Assembly (NCBI GenBank): GCA_004565275.1
Contig: SDOX01000006.1
Span: forward strand, 1,202,183 to 1,266,182
Source of the DNA: Nannochloropsis salina CCMP1776
Taxonomy: Eukaryota; Sar; Eustigmatophyceae; Eustigmatales; Monodopsidaceae
DNA: 64,000 nt
Direction of reading: 5' to 3'
Shown: positions 1-45,630 of the stretch, in pieces
Numbering within the stretch: position 1 is the stretch's first letter
How the letters are laid out: the number at the start of each line of letters is the position of its first letter
Position numbers and translations under genes: made by a program
Notes under the pieces: generated by a model
Seen by the model: only the letters and a program-made list of their open reading frames with translations
Database searches by the model: none
What the model was told of the DNA's origin: nothing

Positions 1-1344
1 GCGGAAGTGGAAGAGTCCATGGGTGGCAGTGCCGGGGGAGGTGGAGACGGAGACGAAGCCCCTCTCCTGGGCCTTCGCGGGGGAGGGGAAGGCAATGGGG
101 AAGAAAGGGTTGGAGCGGGCAGCATGGAGATGGAGCAAGGAGGACGGAACGGAGCTCGGGGAGGGGGGGCGTCTCTTCCCTTCTATTTGGTCGGTAATGT
201 GCTGCACACGTTGCTCGCACCCGTGCGATACATGGCGGGCGTGGGGGAAGGGATGGAAGGGGAGACACAGAATCCGAAGGAGGCTGCGGAGGCGTTCATC
301 AAAAACTACGAGAAAGAGTATCACTGCGCAGGGGTGGAGGGAGGGGGAGGAGGGGGGGGGGAAGAAAGGGAGGGGGCGGGGGAAATCGGCGAAGGGGGAG
401 GCTACGCGTGGACCCCGCGACCCCGTCCTCGATTTCTTCCCCTTTCGTTCCACGACGCCACCCAGCTTGCCTCCAGGGAAGGCAAGCTTCTGCTGGTCTA
501 CGTGCACGCCCCGCTCCACGAGCACACGCCCGCCTTTGTCCAACGCATCTTGAACACGGACCCGATCGTCTCCTTTCTGGACGGCAACATGTTGGTCTGG
601 GGGGGCTCGGTCCACTCCGCCGACGCCTGCCAGACCGCCCAGATCCTCGACGCCGCCGCCTTTCCCTTCATTGCTCTCGTCGCCTGTCAGCGGCACCCTC
701 ACCTGTCCGTCTTGGAACACATGGAGGGGGTGACGGCAGACACGGGAGCCGAGGTGATCCTCCAGCGGCTGACGGCGGCCATGGCCCGCCTGCAGGCGGC
801 AATGGAACAGCAGCAGGCCGTGGTGCGGGAACGGGAGGAACGATCCCGCCTTCAAGCGGAACAGAACCGCGAGTACCAAGAAGCCTTGGAGGCGGACCGG
901 CGCCGGGAAGCCGCCTTGGTGGCGGAGAAGGCACGGGCGGTCCAGGAAGCGGAGGCTGCCCAGAGAAGGGCGGAGGAGGAGAGGGAGGAAGAGGAAAAGA
1001 AACGGGTGGCCTATGCCCAGTGCATCGCCGAGAAACAATCACGGCTTCCCCCAGAGCCCGCCCCTGGCTCACCTGGCGCTTTGCGGTTGCGATTGCAGTT
1101 CCCCCATGGGAAGAAATTGGACAGAAGCTTCCGTCCCACGGATTCCATCCAGGTCGTGAGGGATTTCATCGACGTGCAGGTGGCGGAAGAGGAGAAGGGT
1201 TGGAAGGAGGAAGGGTGCAGGTTGGTGAACTATAGTCTGTCCACACCGTTTCCGAAGAGGACCTTTGCCGAGGTAGGAATGACGTTGCAAGAAGTCGGAT
1301 TGCACAGTGCCGACACAATATACATCACAGATTTGGATGCATAG
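1..1344 (+). CDS. UBX-domain protein, FAF2/UBXD8-like (5' end possibly off window)
   Basis: Likely adaptor that recruits the Cdc48/p97 ATPase to ubiquitinated substrates at the ER membrane or lipid droplets. The frame is open to the window edge; the first in-frame ATG is at 19, so an N-terminal UBA domain may lie outside. From that ATG the protein is about 441 residues: a Gly/Glu-rich start, a short hydrophobic stretch near residues 50-75 (LPFYLVGNVLHTLLAP) where UBXD8 has its membrane hairpin, a thioredoxin-like UAS domain near 135-260, a long charged coiled coil near 265-345, and a C-terminal UBX domain. The UBX part begins LRLRLQFPHG, carries the FP(K/R)R-type loop (TPFPKRTF) and ends DTIYITDLDA. 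Family assignment comes from the UAS-coiled coil-UBX order. The hydrophobic segment is weak, so a soluble FAF1-like role cannot be excluded. An AATAAA lies about 35 nt after the stop. Confidence 0.82.
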   Translation, partial: AEVEESMGGSAGGGGDGDEAPLLGLRGGGEGNGEERVGAGSMEMEQGGRNGARGGGASLPFYLVGNVLHTLLAPVRYMAGVGEGMEGETQNPKEAAEAFIKNYEKEYHCAGVEGGGGGGGEEREGAGEIGEGGGYAWTPRPRPRFLPLSFHDATQLASREGKLLLVYVHAPLHEHTPAFVQRILNTDPIVSFLDGNMLVWGGSVHSADACQTAQILDAAAFPFIALVACQRHPHLSVLEHMEGVTADTGAEVILQRLTAAMARLQAAMEQQQAVVREREERSRLQAEQNREYQEALEADRRREAALVAEKARAVQEAEAAQRRAEEEREEEEKKRVAYAQCIAEKQSRLPPEPAPGSPGALRLRLQFPHGKKLDRSFRPTDSIQVVRDFIDVQVAEEEKGWKEEGCRLVNYSLSTPFPKRTFAEVGMTLQEVGLHSADTIYITDLDA

Positions 1345-10349: not shown

Positions 10350-12243
10350 ATGGACGCAAATGATGCAACTTTAGCAGCCAACTGCGCAGGGTTGGGTGTA
10401 GCTGCGACTTATGTGACGCAAGGGTTGGAAGCAGGTGTTCGGAAACGCCACGGCTATTTTCGGCGGCTGGTCTCTCACCGGCGCTTGCCACCTGACGGCT
10501 GGGATGATGCCACCATCGAAGGCGTTCTGCACGATCTCGCCATGATGGACAGCAACAATTTTCTGGGTAACGTTGGTGTTGGTGAGAGGGAGGCACGCGT
10601 CTATTCTTCCTTGGTGCGACGACGGCATTACGGGCTCGGCCATGGGATGGGGCGGTCGGGAGATATCATGGAGCCGCAACCGAAGGCGGCGGGCTCCTCC
10701 CTCCTCGTGAAGCTCACCAACCTGCTCGCGTTGGACGCAGTGCGGGCAGCAGGGCTGACGCGCATGCAGGATTGTGTGGTGCTGCCCTTGGCCACGGGGA
10801 TGGCCGTAACCATGACGCTTTTAACCCTGCGGCACGAGAGCGCCGTTTCGACCCCACCCCCCGCCCCCGCCTCCACACTCTCCTCCATCGCATCCGCCTC
10901 CTCGGTCTCGACGAAAACGAGCGGGGCTATCCCAACGTCCACCTCTTCCCCGGGCCTCCCACGGCCAGAGCCCTTCCTCCCTCCCCTCCCTCCCCCTCTC
11001 CCTCCCTCCCTTCCTTCCTCCCTTCCTGCCAAAGTATACGTCGTTTTCCCACGAATCGACCAAAAGTCCTGTTTAAAATCTATCGCAACGGCGGGTCTCC
11101 GTCCACTTGTCCTTCCCATGCGCCAATCTTCCCTCAACGACGAGCTCGAGACAGACCTTCCCCTCCTCCATTCCCACCTTCTCCACCACCACGACCAAAT
11201 TTTAGCCGTCCTCTCCACCACCTCCTGCTTTGCCCCCCGCGCGCCCGACAACGTCGTGGGCATCGCGCGTCTCTGTGCCAACTTCCAGATCCATCACGTC
11301 GTGAACAACGCCTACGGTCTGCAATGTTCCCGCACCGCCCATGCCCTCAACGAGGCCTGTCGGGTGGGGAGAGTAGACGCAGTAGTGCACAGCACCGACA
11401 AAAATTTCCTGGTCCCGGTGGGAGGCGCGATCGTGGTGGCGCCTTCACCCGTGGGGGGAGGGAGGGAGGGAAGGAGGGAGGGAGGATGGGAGGATGGTGC
11501 GGAGCACGTCCGGGAGGCGCCGGCGGGGCGGGCACTGGGAAGACGTGAGCCGAGCCAAGGACAGAGAGAGGGAGGAGGGGGGGGAGGGAGGGAAGGCCAG
11601 GATGCGCAAAGCCAGAGGGAGGTGGAAAACGGGAGGCGGGAAGTAAGCCCGGCGAGCGGGGGGGCTGGGGAGGAGTCCTCGAGGGTCGAGTCGAGGGGCG
11701 CTAGGGAAAGCGGAGGACGAGGCGAGGGCGGTCTGGGTAGCAGGGGGGGCAGCTGTCCACGCACGGACGAGACGCAGGATGAGGGGAGCGGCACAAGCTC
11801 CTGCGCCTGGGCCGAAAGCCGCCCTCAGCGTGGCCTCCATCCCAGCACGGCTCCGGGTAGGAAGAGCCTGATCGATCGACTCGGGAAAATGTACCCCGGC
11901 CGTGCCAATGCCACCCCTCTCCACGACCTCTTCGTCACCCTCCTCTCCATGGGTCGCAACGGCTATTTGAAATTATTGCGCGAACGTAACGCCCTGATTC
12001 CCGTGATGAGAGGGGGATTGCAGGGGGTTGCGGAGAAACACCAGTGTCGATTGTTAGAGACGCCGCGAAACTCGATTTCCTTCGCTATTACCTTGAATGG
12101 ACTTTTGAGGGAAGAGGGAGACGGGCAAGAAGAAGAAGCAGGGGGAGAGGGAGGGCTTTCCTTCCTGGGCTCCATGCTCTTTGCACGCGGAGTTTCGGGG
12201 ACGCGCGTGGTCATCCCTGTTAAGGTTTCCCCTTCCTCCCCCG

Positions 12244-12274
<31 letters not shown>

Positions 12275-12620
12275 TTCCTCCTCCCCTTCCTCCTCCTCCT
12301 CCTCCGCCGCCTCTGCTCCCTATGTGCACGTCCCAACCTCCCTAGGACCTTCCAAATCCATCACGCCCCCTCCGGTCAAGATCGTCGCGGGCGTCCCTTT
12401 CTTGGGGTACGGGTCCCACACCAACGAAGCCTACCCCCCCGGCCCATATTTGACGGCGGCTTGCGCCCTGGGAATCACGAAGGACGAGGTGGAGGAATTT
12501 TTAAGGCGCTTGGATCGGACTTTGTCGGAGTTCCCAAAAAAAAGGGGGAAAAGTCGGGGCAAAGGGCTGGGAGATACCCGAGGAAAAGAAGGAACAGCAG
12601 GCGCGGAAGGGAGGAGGTGA
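10350..12620 (+). CDS. SEPSECS: O-phosphoseryl-tRNA(Sec) selenium transferase (SepSecS)
   Basis: PLP enzyme that converts O-phosphoseryl-tRNA(Sec) to selenocysteinyl-tRNA(Sec) using selenophosphate, the last step of eukaryotic selenocysteine synthesis. Conserved blocks in order: MDSNNFLGNVGVGEREARV, GIGRSGDI-like GMGRSGDIMEPQPKAAGSS, VVFPRIDQKSCLKS, STTSCFAPRAPD, VNNAYGLQCS, the PLP-lysine block STDKNFLVPVGGA (Lys about 351), KMYPGRANATP, and the C-terminal GYGSHTNEAYPPGPYL. The frame codes 756 residues, about 250 more than the animal enzyme. The excess sits in three low-complexity insertions: Pro/Ser-rich after LRHES, Gly/Glu/Arg-rich at about 370-500, and a Ser run near 625-650. The Gly/Arg-rich insert could be a retained intron (about 11451-11860), but it stays in frame. 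It implies that the alga makes selenoproteins. Confidence 0.93.
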
Positions 12621-19310: not shown

Positions 19311-20171
19311 TCACTGCTTTCCTCCTTTGTCTTCGGAAGTAAGATATTTAGCCATCCTCAACACAGGCTGGTCGCACTGGCATTCAAGGCATATTTCATT
19401 GTAAAACGAATGAAATGCATCGTCTGCGCGTATGTTGAGCAACAATTCACGAAAACGTGCACCTACTGGCAAATTGTAGAACCACGCTGCGACAGGAGGA
19501 ACCTTCATCGCTGCCACCCCAGGCATCTCGCCCTTTTCCAAAGCTGTCAAGGCGTCTGAGTAAAAATGTGTCGCGTGTGCGGCCACAAATCGCGCAATTG
19601 AAAGGGCAAGTGGTGGATAAACCAGGCAAACAAGAAAGTACACGGGCATGATCATGGCTTGGATGACTATCAGCAAAACCCGGGTGAAAATGGAGGGTTT
19701 CAACGCCTGCAGAAATGACAGCAAATGGATGCGATGGCTTTGATATTCTCCAAGCATTGGTTGGACCATTTGCAGCTCATCATGGTTAGTCAGGATGCTT
19801 CGTAGGTGGCACACATAAGCCATTGTTAAGCCGTGGATCCAATGAACGCTTTCTAGAAGTAAGGCTCGACGTAGAAAGATTGTCTCCCGGGGTCGCTCGA
19901 CGAAGGCGCTCAAATTTAATTCTGGCGTGTCCAGCACCCACAAAGGACGAAGAAGCGCCACAAGAAAAGAGCTGACTGCAATTATCTTCGTTACGAAATA
20001 TCCTCCAATATCGTAAAGAGCATCCACAGTTTGTGGATGGTCCTTGATTGACGATAAATAATTTGAGGGGTAGTGGCCTTTTCTGGCATTCGTCGAGTAA
20101 TCGAATTCTTTGAGAGGGAGGAGGTTGGTATCGAAAGCTGGGTGTGGCTTGAAGCGCGTGGCTTTAGGCAT
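19311..20171 (-). CDS. Alternative oxidase-family protein with altered di-iron ligands
   Basis: A single-exon 286-residue protein. AOX/PTOX enzymes oxidise quinol with oxygen at a di-iron centre held by four Glu and two His. The family layout is visible: LLES with hydrophobic continuation and HLRS (about 105-125), SHRIHLLSFLQ (145-155), a long membrane-surface helix pair (162-195), HFYSDAL (202-208), WFYNLP (230-235) and LNIRADDAFHS (246-255). Relative to the canonical blocks LET, NERMH, LEEEA and RADExHH, the first Glu (107) is kept. NERMH becomes SHRIH, so Glu is replaced by His146 and His149 is kept. LEEEA becomes VAAHA, with no Glu. RADE becomes RADD (Asp251), with His254 kept. The 39-residue spacing of the first two ligands matches true AOX. 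It may be a re-liganded enzyme or a non-catalytic paralogue. There is no clear presequence. Confidence 0.75.
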   Translation of the reverse strand: MPKATRFKPHPAFDTNLLPLKEFDYSTNARKGHYPSNYLSSIKDHPQTVDALYDIGGYFVTKIIAVSSFLVALLRPLWVLDTPELNLSAFVERPRETIFLRRALLLESVHWIHGLTMAYVCHLRSILTNHDELQMVQPMLGEYQSHRIHLLSFLQALKPSIFTRVLLIVIQAMIMPVYFLVCLVYPPLALSIARFVAAHATHFYSDALTALEKGEMPGVAAMKVPPVAAWFYNLPVGARFRELLLNIRADDAFHSFYNEICLECQCDQPVLRMAKYLTSEDKGGKQ

Positions 20172-21363
20172 GGCAGTGCTTGTTGTTAGAATCTAACAAC
20201 GAGGTTTCCTCCTAATGTGCGTGTTTATTTGGGTATTTAAGACTGCAAAAGGAGAATGATTGCCGCAAATAGTCGGCAACATTTTCGAATTGAGATCAAG
20301 CAAAGATGGGTTGAGGTTTGAGGAATATCTGCATTCATGAATGACACGAAGAGAAATTATACACAAAATGTGACCAACGTCGATGGATTCATTTTTCTAC
20401 TAATGGCACGTTTGTTGATTCTTTGGGAACGTGACGATGTCTCGTTGGGTTAGGGAACGTGCCTAGCAAACGCCACCAAAAAGGCGTGAATGCGGGTCAC
20501 TACGAGTGATTCAAAGTCTTGTAATTTATTCATTTATGATTATTACGAAAATTTATTGATGCGTTTCCAATGGCATTAATAAAACCTTGCAAGGAGGCGA
20601 TGGTAAGGTGTGTCGAGGTAGGAATTTACCCGGCAAAAAATACACCGCACACACCTTCCACACTGCCAGTGAAATCGCAAAAAAGACTGCTCACATGACA
20701 CACGCATCCAAAAAAGTGCAACACAAGGTATGCGTCCATGACAAGTACCCTCAGAATCATTTATCTTTGCAAAAACACAAATCCGGCGGTCACCGGAGGG
20801 GGGGGGGGGGGGGTTGGAAATATCACACATGATATGACGAGGTTCGACACACCTTTCTCATTTTGATGGAGAGACTCAAATCTAAAGGAGCACACCCCGC
20901 AGGGGTGGGCGGGACGCCTACAGTAGAAGTTTCTATCAGTGGAATTGTCGGTGAAAAGATGATACGAGTCGTTGGGTGGTGCGATTATGTTGCCGGTGGA
21001 CATGGCGGGATATGGTTCCAGAACTTGTTCTTATGCAAGGAAGCAGATGTCGTCATAATGTGGGCCGCGTGCATGCAGCATAACCCGCATGCCTGCCGGC
21101 TACGCGCGCATATGAAGCGTTTGAAATCTAACGTGGCCTTCCAGTGTGTAACCTTTATGACCTGTTCATGAAGAGACGTGCAGCGACCTAACTGTTTTCC
21201 ACGCGGGCACACACCTCGTGTGCCCCTAGTTCAACACGAAGCGAGTTGCTGCCCGTATCGATGTCTTGTTCTACACTAGGTACTCTTCCCAATCTAAGAC
21301 CATCCACTGAATGCATTGATATTTCTTCGACAGTCACAAAGAAAAAAGCCGCCAAGATTCATC
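20172..21363. other. Intergenic with a 16-G run
   Basis: About 1.2 kb without a recognisable gene. It includes an uninterrupted run of 16 G at 20798-20813 and several 8-10 nt A/T stretches. It separates the divergent oxidase-like gene and the small secreted-protein gene. Confidence 0.5.
20798..20813. repeat. Poly-G tract (16 nt)
   Basis: An uninterrupted G homopolymer on the + strand, likely length-variable and prone to sequencing error. Confidence 0.9.
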
Positions 21364-43433: not shown

Positions 43434-45630
43434 ATGCGTTACATAAGCACACGCTACGACCCTTCCTCCTCCTCTCCCTCCTCTCGACGCTATTCCTTTC
43501 GAGAGGCCGTCCTGGCGGGGTGGGCCCCAGACGGGGGAATGTTCTTGCCCGAACGGATTCCTCACGTGTCACTGGCTCTGCTTGAATCATGGAGAGGATT
43601 GACTTATCCGGAGTTAGTGACGAAACTCCTTGCCCTCTTTATGGACGATGGCGACGCCGAGGATGCAACACAGAACGCAGAAGTGGACAAAGTGCCCTTG
43701 AGAAAGATCGTGCATGCTAGTTTTGCCTCCTTTGCCGTCCCCGAAGTGGTTCGATGGAAAGCCTTGCCGTGGCCGTACCTCTCTTCCTCCTCCACCACCG
43801 CCTCGTCCTCTGCCTCCCCCCCCCTCTCCCGCCACCCTCTTCCTTCCTTCCTAGAGAAGCAGGAACCTCCTTCCCTGTACATCGCCGAGCTCTTCCACGG
43901 TCCTTCTCTTGCCTTCAAAGACCTCGGCATGCAGGTCCTGACGAACCTTCTGGAACATTATCTGCTCCAGGAGGGACGTCGAATGACTTTCTTGGTGGGC
44001 ACCTCGGGAGATACGGGGCCCTCGGCCGCGGCCGCTGTGCAGGGCAAAGTCGCCATGCGCCTCGTCGTCCTCTACCCCTTGGGGAGGGTGAGTACCTTCC
44101 AGGAAGCTCAAATGCTCGCCGCGCACGATGGGGTGGGAGGAAGCGGGGAGAAAGCCAGTGGGGTTGCGGCCGAGGCAAAAGCTGGGACATTGGGGACCCC
44201 AAACGTGCGGGTCGTGGCTGTGGAGGGCTCAAGCGACGACCTGGACGTACCAATCGCTAGTCTCTTCGGAGATCCTGCCTACAGGTGCGACTTGTTCCGT
44301 GACCCTCCCTCCCACGACTGCCAGCCTGCGGGTTGACGTTGTGAGGGCAGTGCGCGTTTTATGGCATCTCTCGATCGGGGCATGCGCCCGTCGTCCCGTG
44401 TCTTTACCCCCTCCTTCCTTCCCTCCCTCCTTCCCTCCCTCCTTCCCTCCCTCCTTCCCTCCCTCCTTCCCTCCCTCCTTCCCTCCCTCCTTTCCTCCCT
44501 CAGAGCCAAGCATGCCCTCGGGAGTCTCAACAGCGTCAATATTGTCCGCCTGCTCGTTCAGATCTTCCACTTCTTCTACGCTTATCTGCAGCTATGCCCT
44601 GCCAGGTGCGCGAGCGATGAAGGGCCAGAGGGAAGGAAGGAGGGAGGGAGGGAGGGAGGGGAGGAAGACTTCCGCCCCCTCCTCTCCTTCGTTGTTCCGA
44701 CAGGAGCGGCCGGGCACGTCACGGCTGGTTTGTTGGCGGCAATGATGGGTTTACCGTTACGACGGTTACTGATGGCAACGAACAGTAACGGTCGGGTGTT
44801 GCGTCGACTGGTGAAGGAGGGGGTGTGGGCCCAGGAGGGAGCAGTAGGGGAGGGAGGAGGGGAGGGAGGGAGGGAGGGAGGGGGATTGGCAGCGGACGAA
44901 TTCCCCTGCCATGGACATCCAGGCTCCCTACAATGTGGAGAGGATCTTGAGCTTGGTGGCGAGAGAGGGCGGGAGGGAGGGCGGGAGGGAGGGCGGGAGG
45001 GAGGAAGGAGCCAGCTTGACGGGACGGGATATCAAAGAGGCGATGGAAACCTTCTACGCAGGGGGGCTGTGGGCCCTCCCTCCCGCCCTCCTTCGTCACC
45101 TGAAAAGCTGGGGCGTGGCCTGCGCGGAGCCCGTGGAGGCGGGAGCTGTGGAGGAGACGATTCGCGCAGTGTACGAGGGAGGGAGGGAGGGAGGGAGGGA
45201 GGGAGAAAGGGAGGGATGGGGAAAAGGGGGGTACCTCCTCGACCCCCATACGGCGGTGGGCGTGACTGTGGCAGGGCGAGAAATGGAGCGGGGGAGGGAG
45301 GGAGGGAGGGAGGGGTGGAGGAAGGGGGAGGTGGTGGTGGGCATGGGTTGTGCGCACCCGGCTAAGTTCAAGGAGACCGTTCAACAAGCGTTGCAGCTGA
45401 CGTCGCGAGGAGCAGCTGCCGAATTACTGATGATGGGAGAGGGACCTGCCTACGCAGGCGCTCAGACGGAGGTGATGAGGATGGAAGAGAGGAGGAATGG
45501 AGGTAGGGAAGGAGCAGACGGGCTTCCGTGTCCTGTCTTTCGGGCCTCAGAGAAGGGCCAGTGGAGGGCGCGATTGGAGGAGGAAATCGCCGCGCTGGAG
45601 GGGGAGGGAGGGGAAGATGGAGCGTTGTGA
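43434..45630 (+). CDS. THR4: Threonine synthase (THR4 type)
   Basis: PLP enzyme converting O-phosphohomoserine to threonine. Exons 43434-44284, 44504-44843 and 44893-45630 give 642 residues. Conserved blocks: MRYISTR, AVLAGWAPDGGMFLPE, IAELFHGPSLAFKDLGMQ (PLP Lys162), LVGTSGDTGPSAAAAV, VVLYPLGRVSTFQEAQM, VEGSSDDLDVPI, then SLNSVNIVRLLVQIFHFFYAY in exon 2, VVPTGAAGHVTAGLLAAMMGLP, NSPAMDIQAPYNVERI at the third exon, and GGYLLDPHTAVGVTVA and CAHPAKFKETV near the end. The second intron is only 49 nt; without it the frame is wrong from the NSPAMD block. The third exon includes three in-frame GGGA-derived insertions encoding (E/R)GGR repeats between conserved blocks. The first intron is a TCCC tract acting as polypyrimidine region. 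Confidence 0.93.
44411..44500 (+). repeat. 12-nt pyrimidine repeat in threonine synthase intron 1
   Basis: About seven copies of TTCCCTCCCTCC run up to the CAG acceptor at 44503, acting as an exaggerated polypyrimidine tract. Confidence 0.85.

Follow-up and report, generated by a model that had tools for sequence, protein, structure and literature searches.

An alternative oxidase relative of Nannochloropsis salina with three of the four carboxylate ligands replaced

Alternative oxidase (AOX) is defined by a di-iron site of four Glu and two His residues, yet a profile match is sufficient for a protein to be given that name. In ferritin-like di-iron proteins, the Glu residues of the ExxH motifs bridge both metals, and the Glu residues of helices 2 and 5 each bind one. 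In Arabidopsis AOX1A (AtAOX1A), the accessible part of a published study lists ligands that include Glu183, Glu222, and Glu273, spaced by 39 and 51 residues (PMC9243770), and a second report, in the part available, states that mutating the six ligand residues could seriously affect AOX activity (PMC8935807). Here we describe P0001, an AOX relative encoded by the alga Nannochloropsis salina CCMP1776 within a 64,000-nucleotide stretch of contig SDOX01000006.1 (forward-strand positions 1,202,183 to 1,266,182), which as a whole is called the window. Three of the four carboxylate ligands of AOX are replaced in this protein. Judged from its sequence and a structure model, P0001 is probably an AOX-fold protein that is maintained but does not act as a canonical quinol oxidase. 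That judgement covers the core claim alone, and the metal-free alternative weighed below is an empty-site form that overlaps with it.

The gene was identified by calling open reading frames (ORFs) and by a Pfam match:

19311..20171 (-), AOX-superfamily ORF of 286 amino acids (P0001), without an intron inside the ORF

Its frame has no internal stop, and the plus-strand frame at identical coordinates has many. The Pfam AOX family (PF01786) matches residues 96-259 with 112 bits (E 4.2e-32; cut-off, 22.7 bits). A search of PDB sequences matched three distinct solved sequences, all of them mitochondrial AOX, the best being Trypanosoma brucei AOX (TAO) at 65 bits. No NCBIfam model matched at E 0.01, a result made uninformative by three bacterial AOX proteins, a canonical one included, that are equally unmatched. 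An in-frame TAG sits 7 codons 5' of the ATG and leaves an open frame of 293 amino acids; thus an upstream spliced exon is possible, and the true N terminus is unsure. Upstream of the gene, the minus strand also carries about 16 consecutive C (window about 20798-20813).

The ligand columns of P0001 were read against TAO, whose ligands we take to be E123, E162, H165, E213, E266, and H269, and against an alignment of 65 relatives. The positions that matter are as follows:

19851..19853 (-), Glu107 (GAA), helix-2 ligand position kept; Glu in 65/65 relatives
19842..19844 (-), His110 (CAT), equivalent of the AtAOX1A cavity residue Ala186; Ala in 65/65 relatives
19833..19835 (-), His113 (CAC); Pro in 65/65 relatives
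19734..19736 (-), His146 (CAT), replacing the Glu ligand of NERMH, 39 residues past Glu107; Glu in 60/65 and Gln in 5/65 relatives
19725..19727 (-), His149 (CAT), ligand position kept; His in 65/65 relatives
19581..19583 (-), Ala197 (GCC), where LEEEA has its first Glu; His146 lies 51 residues earlier and Tyr204 7 residues later; the 65 relatives have Glu (60), Ala (3), or Ser (2)
19575..19577 (-), His199 (CAC), two residues past the third-Glu ligand position; the PTOX-like genes of this genome share this His
19419..19421 (-), Asp251 (GAT), replacing the Glu ligand of RADE; Glu in 65/65 relatives of the alignment
19410..19412 (-), His254 (CAT), ligand position kept; His in 65/65 relatives

The six positions therefore read E107, H146, H149, A197, D251, and H254, so that three of six depart from the canonical AOX set, and the Glu/His set of PTOX is likewise changed at three positions. 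An earlier inspection of the letters alone (the sequence-only reading) had proposed an AOX fold at this locus, with Glu107, His149, and His254 kept, Glu replaced by His146 and by Asp251, and 39 residues between Glu107 and the ExxH position. All of this holds against the Pfam score, the structure model, TAO, and the 65 relatives. The same reading had named His199 as the nearest possible ligand at the LEEEA block, and here it has to be corrected. Ala197 is the residue that matches the ligand Glu of LEEEA: it stands 51 residues past His146, as Glu273 does past Glu222 in AtAOX1A, and the register is anchored by Tyr204, common to 65/65 aligned relatives. Positions 107, 146, and 197 keep the AtAOX1A spacing of 39 and 51, and only the last interval differs (54, compared with 51 in AtAOX1A). 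His199 was thus rejected as a replacement ligand on the spacing, the Tyr204 register, and the His at the same place in the PTOX-like genes. Sequencing error was also rejected as the main cause, since turning CAT, GCC, and GAT into Glu codons would take at least 2, 2, and 1 base changes, in all at least five over three codons in a frame that is otherwise open.

The fold is what the profile match leads one to expect. The modelled protein forms the AOX helix bundle as in TAO, and counterparts of the hydrophobic membrane-binding helices 1 and 4 of canonical AOX are predicted, helix 1 at low model confidence (pLDDT, predicted local distance difference test; GRAVY, grand average of hydropathy):

19941..20036 (-), hydrophobic helix 46-77, likely counterpart of AOX membrane-binding helix 1; mean pLDDT 47-61 (low), GRAVY 0.99
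19620..19691 (-), hydrophobic helix 161-184, likely counterpart of membrane-binding helix 4; mean pLDDT 91-94, GRAVY 2.35

P0001 therefore resembles mitochondrial AOX (PF01786; T. brucei structures 3vv9, 3w54, and 9kun) in its helix bundle, its hydrophobic helices, the positions of Glu107, His149, and His254, and the spacing of 39 and 51, and it also keeps the conserved Glu142, Arg147, Tyr204, Arg248, and Asp250. It differs at three of the four Glu ligands, which are His, Ala, and Asp here, and at an invariant Ala and an invariant Pro, replaced by His110 and His113; compared with the aligned AOX relatives, identity is 22-30%, and the ORF has no intron. Ferritin-like di-iron proteins such as bacterioferritin and COQ7 are more distant, with AOX scoring about 8 Z units higher for the P0001 model and none of them matched in the PDB sequence search.

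What would such a site hold? Ala197 is unable to bind metal, so that one metal site would be short of its terminal carboxylate. Since His146 and Asp251 are changed as well, the standard four-Glu di-iron center presumably cannot form, and P0001 is most likely not a canonical ubiquinol oxidase. If P0001 binds metal, the remaining Glu107, His146, His149, Asp251, and His254 would be best suited to holding a single metal ion, on the side of the old site that has Glu107 and His149, and at most one metal site is plausible. His110 would face the former quinol cavity. We read P0001 as a fast-evolving, membrane-associated AOX relative that, by profile and model, keeps the helix bundle and hydrophobic helices. 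Our working model is an AOX-derived, membrane-bound protein with a single-metal or, less likely, an empty site, which may bind quinone-like ligands. The sequence-only reading had suggested a different or mixed metal center or a non-catalytic paralogue that binds quinol or the membrane, and P0001 may be of either kind.

The empty site deserves consideration in its own right. P0001 could be a metal-free pseudoenzyme, either a membrane- or quinone-binding scaffold or a dimer partner tuning a canonical AOX or PTOX, and the change of one ligand to Ala and of two more to other residues, with the fold and hydrophobic helices intact, is what such a protein might look like. We regard this as a possibility to be taken seriously, though an unlikely one: five first-shell positions are still good ligands (two carboxylates and three His), needless for a pure scaffold, and the identity of only 26% between P0001 and the core of the genome's own AOX makes a mixed dimer uncertain.

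The opposite alternative is that P0001 is still an oxidase with a rearranged two-metal site, in which His146 and Asp251 serve as ligands and His110 or His199 covers the loss of Ala197. The five potential ligands are joined by His110, His199, and His202 nearby in the sequence. In the accessible part of the AtAOX1A study, the region linking the di-iron cavity with the membrane includes Ala186 and Glu275 (PMC9243770); their counterparts by position, His110 and His199, are both His in P0001. For the second cavity region, that study names Arg164, Asp168, Arg178, Leu182, Ala186, Leu272, Glu275, and Ala276 (PMC9243770). Six of these eight residues can be mapped onto P0001 (R102, L106, H110, V196, H199, and A200), and three of the six are identical. 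With 9 His residues in total, the P0001 core is not unusual: relatives average 7.3 and have up to 10. Against this, the offset of His199 from the ligand position is two residues, a turn of about 200 degrees on the helix, and the PTOX-like genes share this His; the reported effect of mutating the six residues on AOX activity (PMC8935807, as far as its available part goes) also argues against a working rearranged site. For these reasons we think a surviving oxidase improbable.

Returning to the preferred reading, a maintained protein other than a canonical oxidase, the case for maintenance comes from the pattern of change. Counted from residue 100, P0001 has the family residue at 29 of the 63 columns that are at least 90% conserved, compared with 20 of 103 less conserved ones. 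In simulated neutral change, 0.1 changes per site left 13 of 400 copies stop-free, and 0.3 left none of 400 at an amino-acid identity still of 53%. Because stop-free copies are so scarce while the real identity is 22-30%, nearly all of the divergence would have arisen while selection acted on the frame. Both its openness and the preferential keeping of conserved residues argue that most divergence arose under coding constraint, and the view of the sequence-only reading, that a fold preserved without stop codons speaks against a dead gene, is borne out by both observations.

Several observations pull the other way. The end branch of P0001 in the tree is extreme, at 10 changes per column, as relaxed constraint would give. 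At 34 of the 63 strongly conserved columns P0001 differs, and 3 further such columns are gapped. Its codon usage score (-0.043) is exceeded by 11 of the window's 12 long ORFs (at least 300 amino acids; range, -0.079 to 0.134), on which the score was trained and not all of which are proven genes; it is above the flank-composition null (-0.123; standard deviation, 0.026). Iron is commonly bound by Asp and His as well, and P0001 may therefore hold an altered di-metal site. Finally, the AOX1 knock-outs described below were made in another strain, which may or may not carry the P0001 gene, and an enzyme that is plastidial or insensitive to salicylhydroxamic acid (SHAM) would escape the assay.

The long branch, the weak codon usage, the differing and gapped columns, and the lack of an orthologue among viral contigs, GTDB genomes, plasmids, and phages would all suit a recently decaying gene, in which selection ended not long ago and the active-site changes are random decay. 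The simulation weighs against this, since with 13 of 400 copies stop-free at 0.1 changes per site nearly all of the divergence must predate any decay, as does the more frequent matching of conserved than of variable columns. We consider recent decay decidedly unlikely.

The genome (26.5 Mb in 103 contigs) was searched with the AOX profile, and the sequence-only reading had raised the matter of a second, canonical AOX. One is present, on contig C70, together with two PTOX-like genes (C48 and C17); the C70 AOX and the C17 PTOX-like gene each match in several pieces. A search with P0001 itself returned its own gene and a weak match to the C70 AOX (E 0.006), nothing else. PTOX shares the Pfam family with P0001 and has a His two residues past the third Glu ligand (ERHAYDTY and ESHAVDTY in the two genes), but these genes retain Glu at each position covered (LET, NELHH, and ERHAYDTY or ESHAVDTY; the last C48 exon is not among them), and P0001 does not group firmly with them. 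In our working model, the canonical AOX and the PTOX-like genes would carry out the oxidase work of the cell.

Work on Microchloropsis gaditana gives a functional hint. The C70 AOX holds one published M. gaditana AOX1 target site at 19/19 bases and the other at 17/19 (sites from the accessible part of PMC8185151), from which we would place the alga in or near Microchloropsis, as something other than strain CCMP526. That part of the report describes AOX1 knock-outs in which the antimycin-insensitive, SHAM-sensitive respiration, 40-50% of wild-type dark O2 uptake, was almost completely suppressed, and its authors observed no AOX1 duplication (PMC8185151). If a P0001 orthologue is present in M. 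gaditana, it would appear not to stand in for AOX under the knock-out conditions. As a separate observation on this genome, it is rich in light-harvesting genes, with 34 match places.

Canonical ligands are the rule among AOX relatives. A scan of viral sequences with the alignment gave 430 relatives, of which the best 80 were examined (19 remain at 80% identity); all six standard residues are found in 79 of these 80. The exception, L061 on a viral contig, has Ala for the last Glu ligand (REDAAGH) and keeps the other five. In GTDB, at least 550 stretches encode relatives, and the best 80, ranked by likeness to the ligand-poor locus L013, were taken. Together with 5 plasmid and phage loci they make 85 bacterial, plasmid, and phage loci, 77 of them standard and 8 with Gln at the NERMH Glu and Ala (6) or Ser (2) at the LEEEA Glu. 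That share of 8/85 is biased upward by the ranking on L013. In draws of bacterial genomes, AOX was found in 9/297, 19/398, and 14/293; 41 AOX loci from these draws comprise 35 standard ones, 3 of the Gln/Ala kind (one of which, L225, is the same gene as L111), 2 from a single AOX split over two frames, and 1 partial. In the one of these draws that was spread evenly across the phylum, the Gln/Ala kind occurred in 3 of the 19 genomes with AOX, one being the center chosen for having it. The split gene (L226 and L227; G287:C5:54609-55198) is either broken or a sequencing error.

Close relatives of P0001 were found in neither the viral contigs nor the GTDB genomes. A DNA pattern for VHWIHGL matched 29 viral stretches, none of which encodes one either; these gave only four weak tblastn matches (E 0.80-0.93). 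Plasmids gave 21 records of relatives and phages 1, all below 60% identity, with ligands checked in 5 of the 22. Judged by titles and the starts of abstracts, with subscription journals mostly outside the coverage, no literature on ligand-poor AOX proteins was recognised among the papers listed. Neither PMC8569227, in which the haem-deficient Escherichia coli strain FN102 served for other AOX proteins, nor PMC12406258, where the residue names gave no match, contributed to the ligand numbering.

The closest comparison is with a bacterial AOX-like branch (Chelatococcus, Bradyrhizobium, and others; L013:166-822, L109-L115, L224, and L244) that has Gln and Ala/Ser at two di-iron Glu positions; no published name for it was found. 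Its support is 100/100, the enclosing forks among ordinary bacterial AOX being less firm (94/77 and 89/88), and six members compared are 58-90% identical to L013. A fully supported branch with members this different argues that the loss of the two Glu residues was kept through much divergence, and ligand-poor AOX-fold proteins can evidently persist. One member, L224 (G294:C17:157596-158174), has lost the last His too, with Gln instead (EDEAIQ for EDEAIH). All five tested genomes of the Gln/Ala kind, their completeness not being given, have a single AOX match. P0001 has lost the same two ligand positions (Glu162 and Glu213 in what we take to be TAO numbering) and shares the kept helix-2 Glu and first ExxH His; it differs in having His where the branch has Gln and Asp where the branch keeps the last Glu, so that Ala197 alone agrees with the branch pattern of Gln at the first ExxH Glu, Ala/Ser at the third Glu, and the last Glu kept. 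A claim of convergence was dropped: sharing the same two of six positions is not significant, a random three-of-six set holding a given pair in 4 of 20 cases (hand-reckoned).

Could the gene have come from bacteria, as a ligand-poor AOX of the Chelatococcus/Bradyrhizobium type that then diverged fast? The ORF has no intron, compared with the several-piece matches of the genome's AOX and C17 PTOX-like gene, and two of the same ligand positions are lost in the branch. Approximately unbiased (AU) tests on a 30-row tree, with the ligand columns retained as in all trees, do not reject one clade with the bacterial branch (p 0.219), but they equally permit grouping with eukaryotic AOX (0.202) or PTOX (0.257). 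The best tree places P0001 apart from the branch, and its identity to five branch members (22-25%) is no higher than to the rest. A bacterial gain seems to us very improbable, the least probable of the explanations weighed here.

The surroundings of the branch were surveyed through the ORFs around 7 loci, with 10 neighbours, picked by eye from 4 loci and with no control set, scanned for domains. NnrS was found at 2/4 (L112 and L115), a Crp-type regulator at 2/4 (L111 and L115), and a plastocyanin/azurin-type protein at 1/4 (near L109); a pseudoazurin is annotated by L013. Next to L111 lie two U32-peptidase proteins and a DGC domain; L112 has a COX1-family oxidase nearby and L115 an FGE-sulfatase domain. 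These eye-picked neighbours point to nitric-oxide or denitrification settings. Ordinary bacterial AOX also has links of the nitric-oxide type: a globin gene follows the Sphingomonas AOX, and the Vibrio fischeri NsrR regulon includes an AOX homologue, according to the available part of that study (PMC1274295).

One can envision a broader picture, which we hold to be doubtful, in which the AOX fold has taken on a role different from that of a di-iron quinol oxidase both in the alga (His/Ala/Asp and a cavity-facing His) and in the bacterial branch (Gln and Ala/Ser). In both, the second site would be without a carboxylate of its own, with the helix-2 Glu and first ExxH His kept, and the result would be a one-metal membrane center with new chemistry; some bacterial members lie by nitric-oxide/denitrification-type genes.

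Elsewhere in the window, the next long ORF downstream of P0001 (17230-18282, minus strand) is hydrophobic and resembles Rolling stone below the threshold (10.8 bits, where 26.8 is the cut-off). A large ORF on the plus strand (10350-12620) matches SepSecS in three stretches (E 4e-105), consistent with selenocysteine use in the alga. Another (43434-44336, plus strand) matches the threonine synthase N terminus, with a PALP domain below the cut-off, and 19-1344 (plus strand) encodes a UBX-domain protein.

If P0001 is indeed a maintained AOX-fold protein without the di-iron site, this would show the fold to be capable of another role. It would also caution against counting AOX genes by profile, and it would provide a natural test of which ligands the AOX enzyme needs. 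A diverged bacterial branch that has lost two of the same positions makes the question testable beyond one genome.
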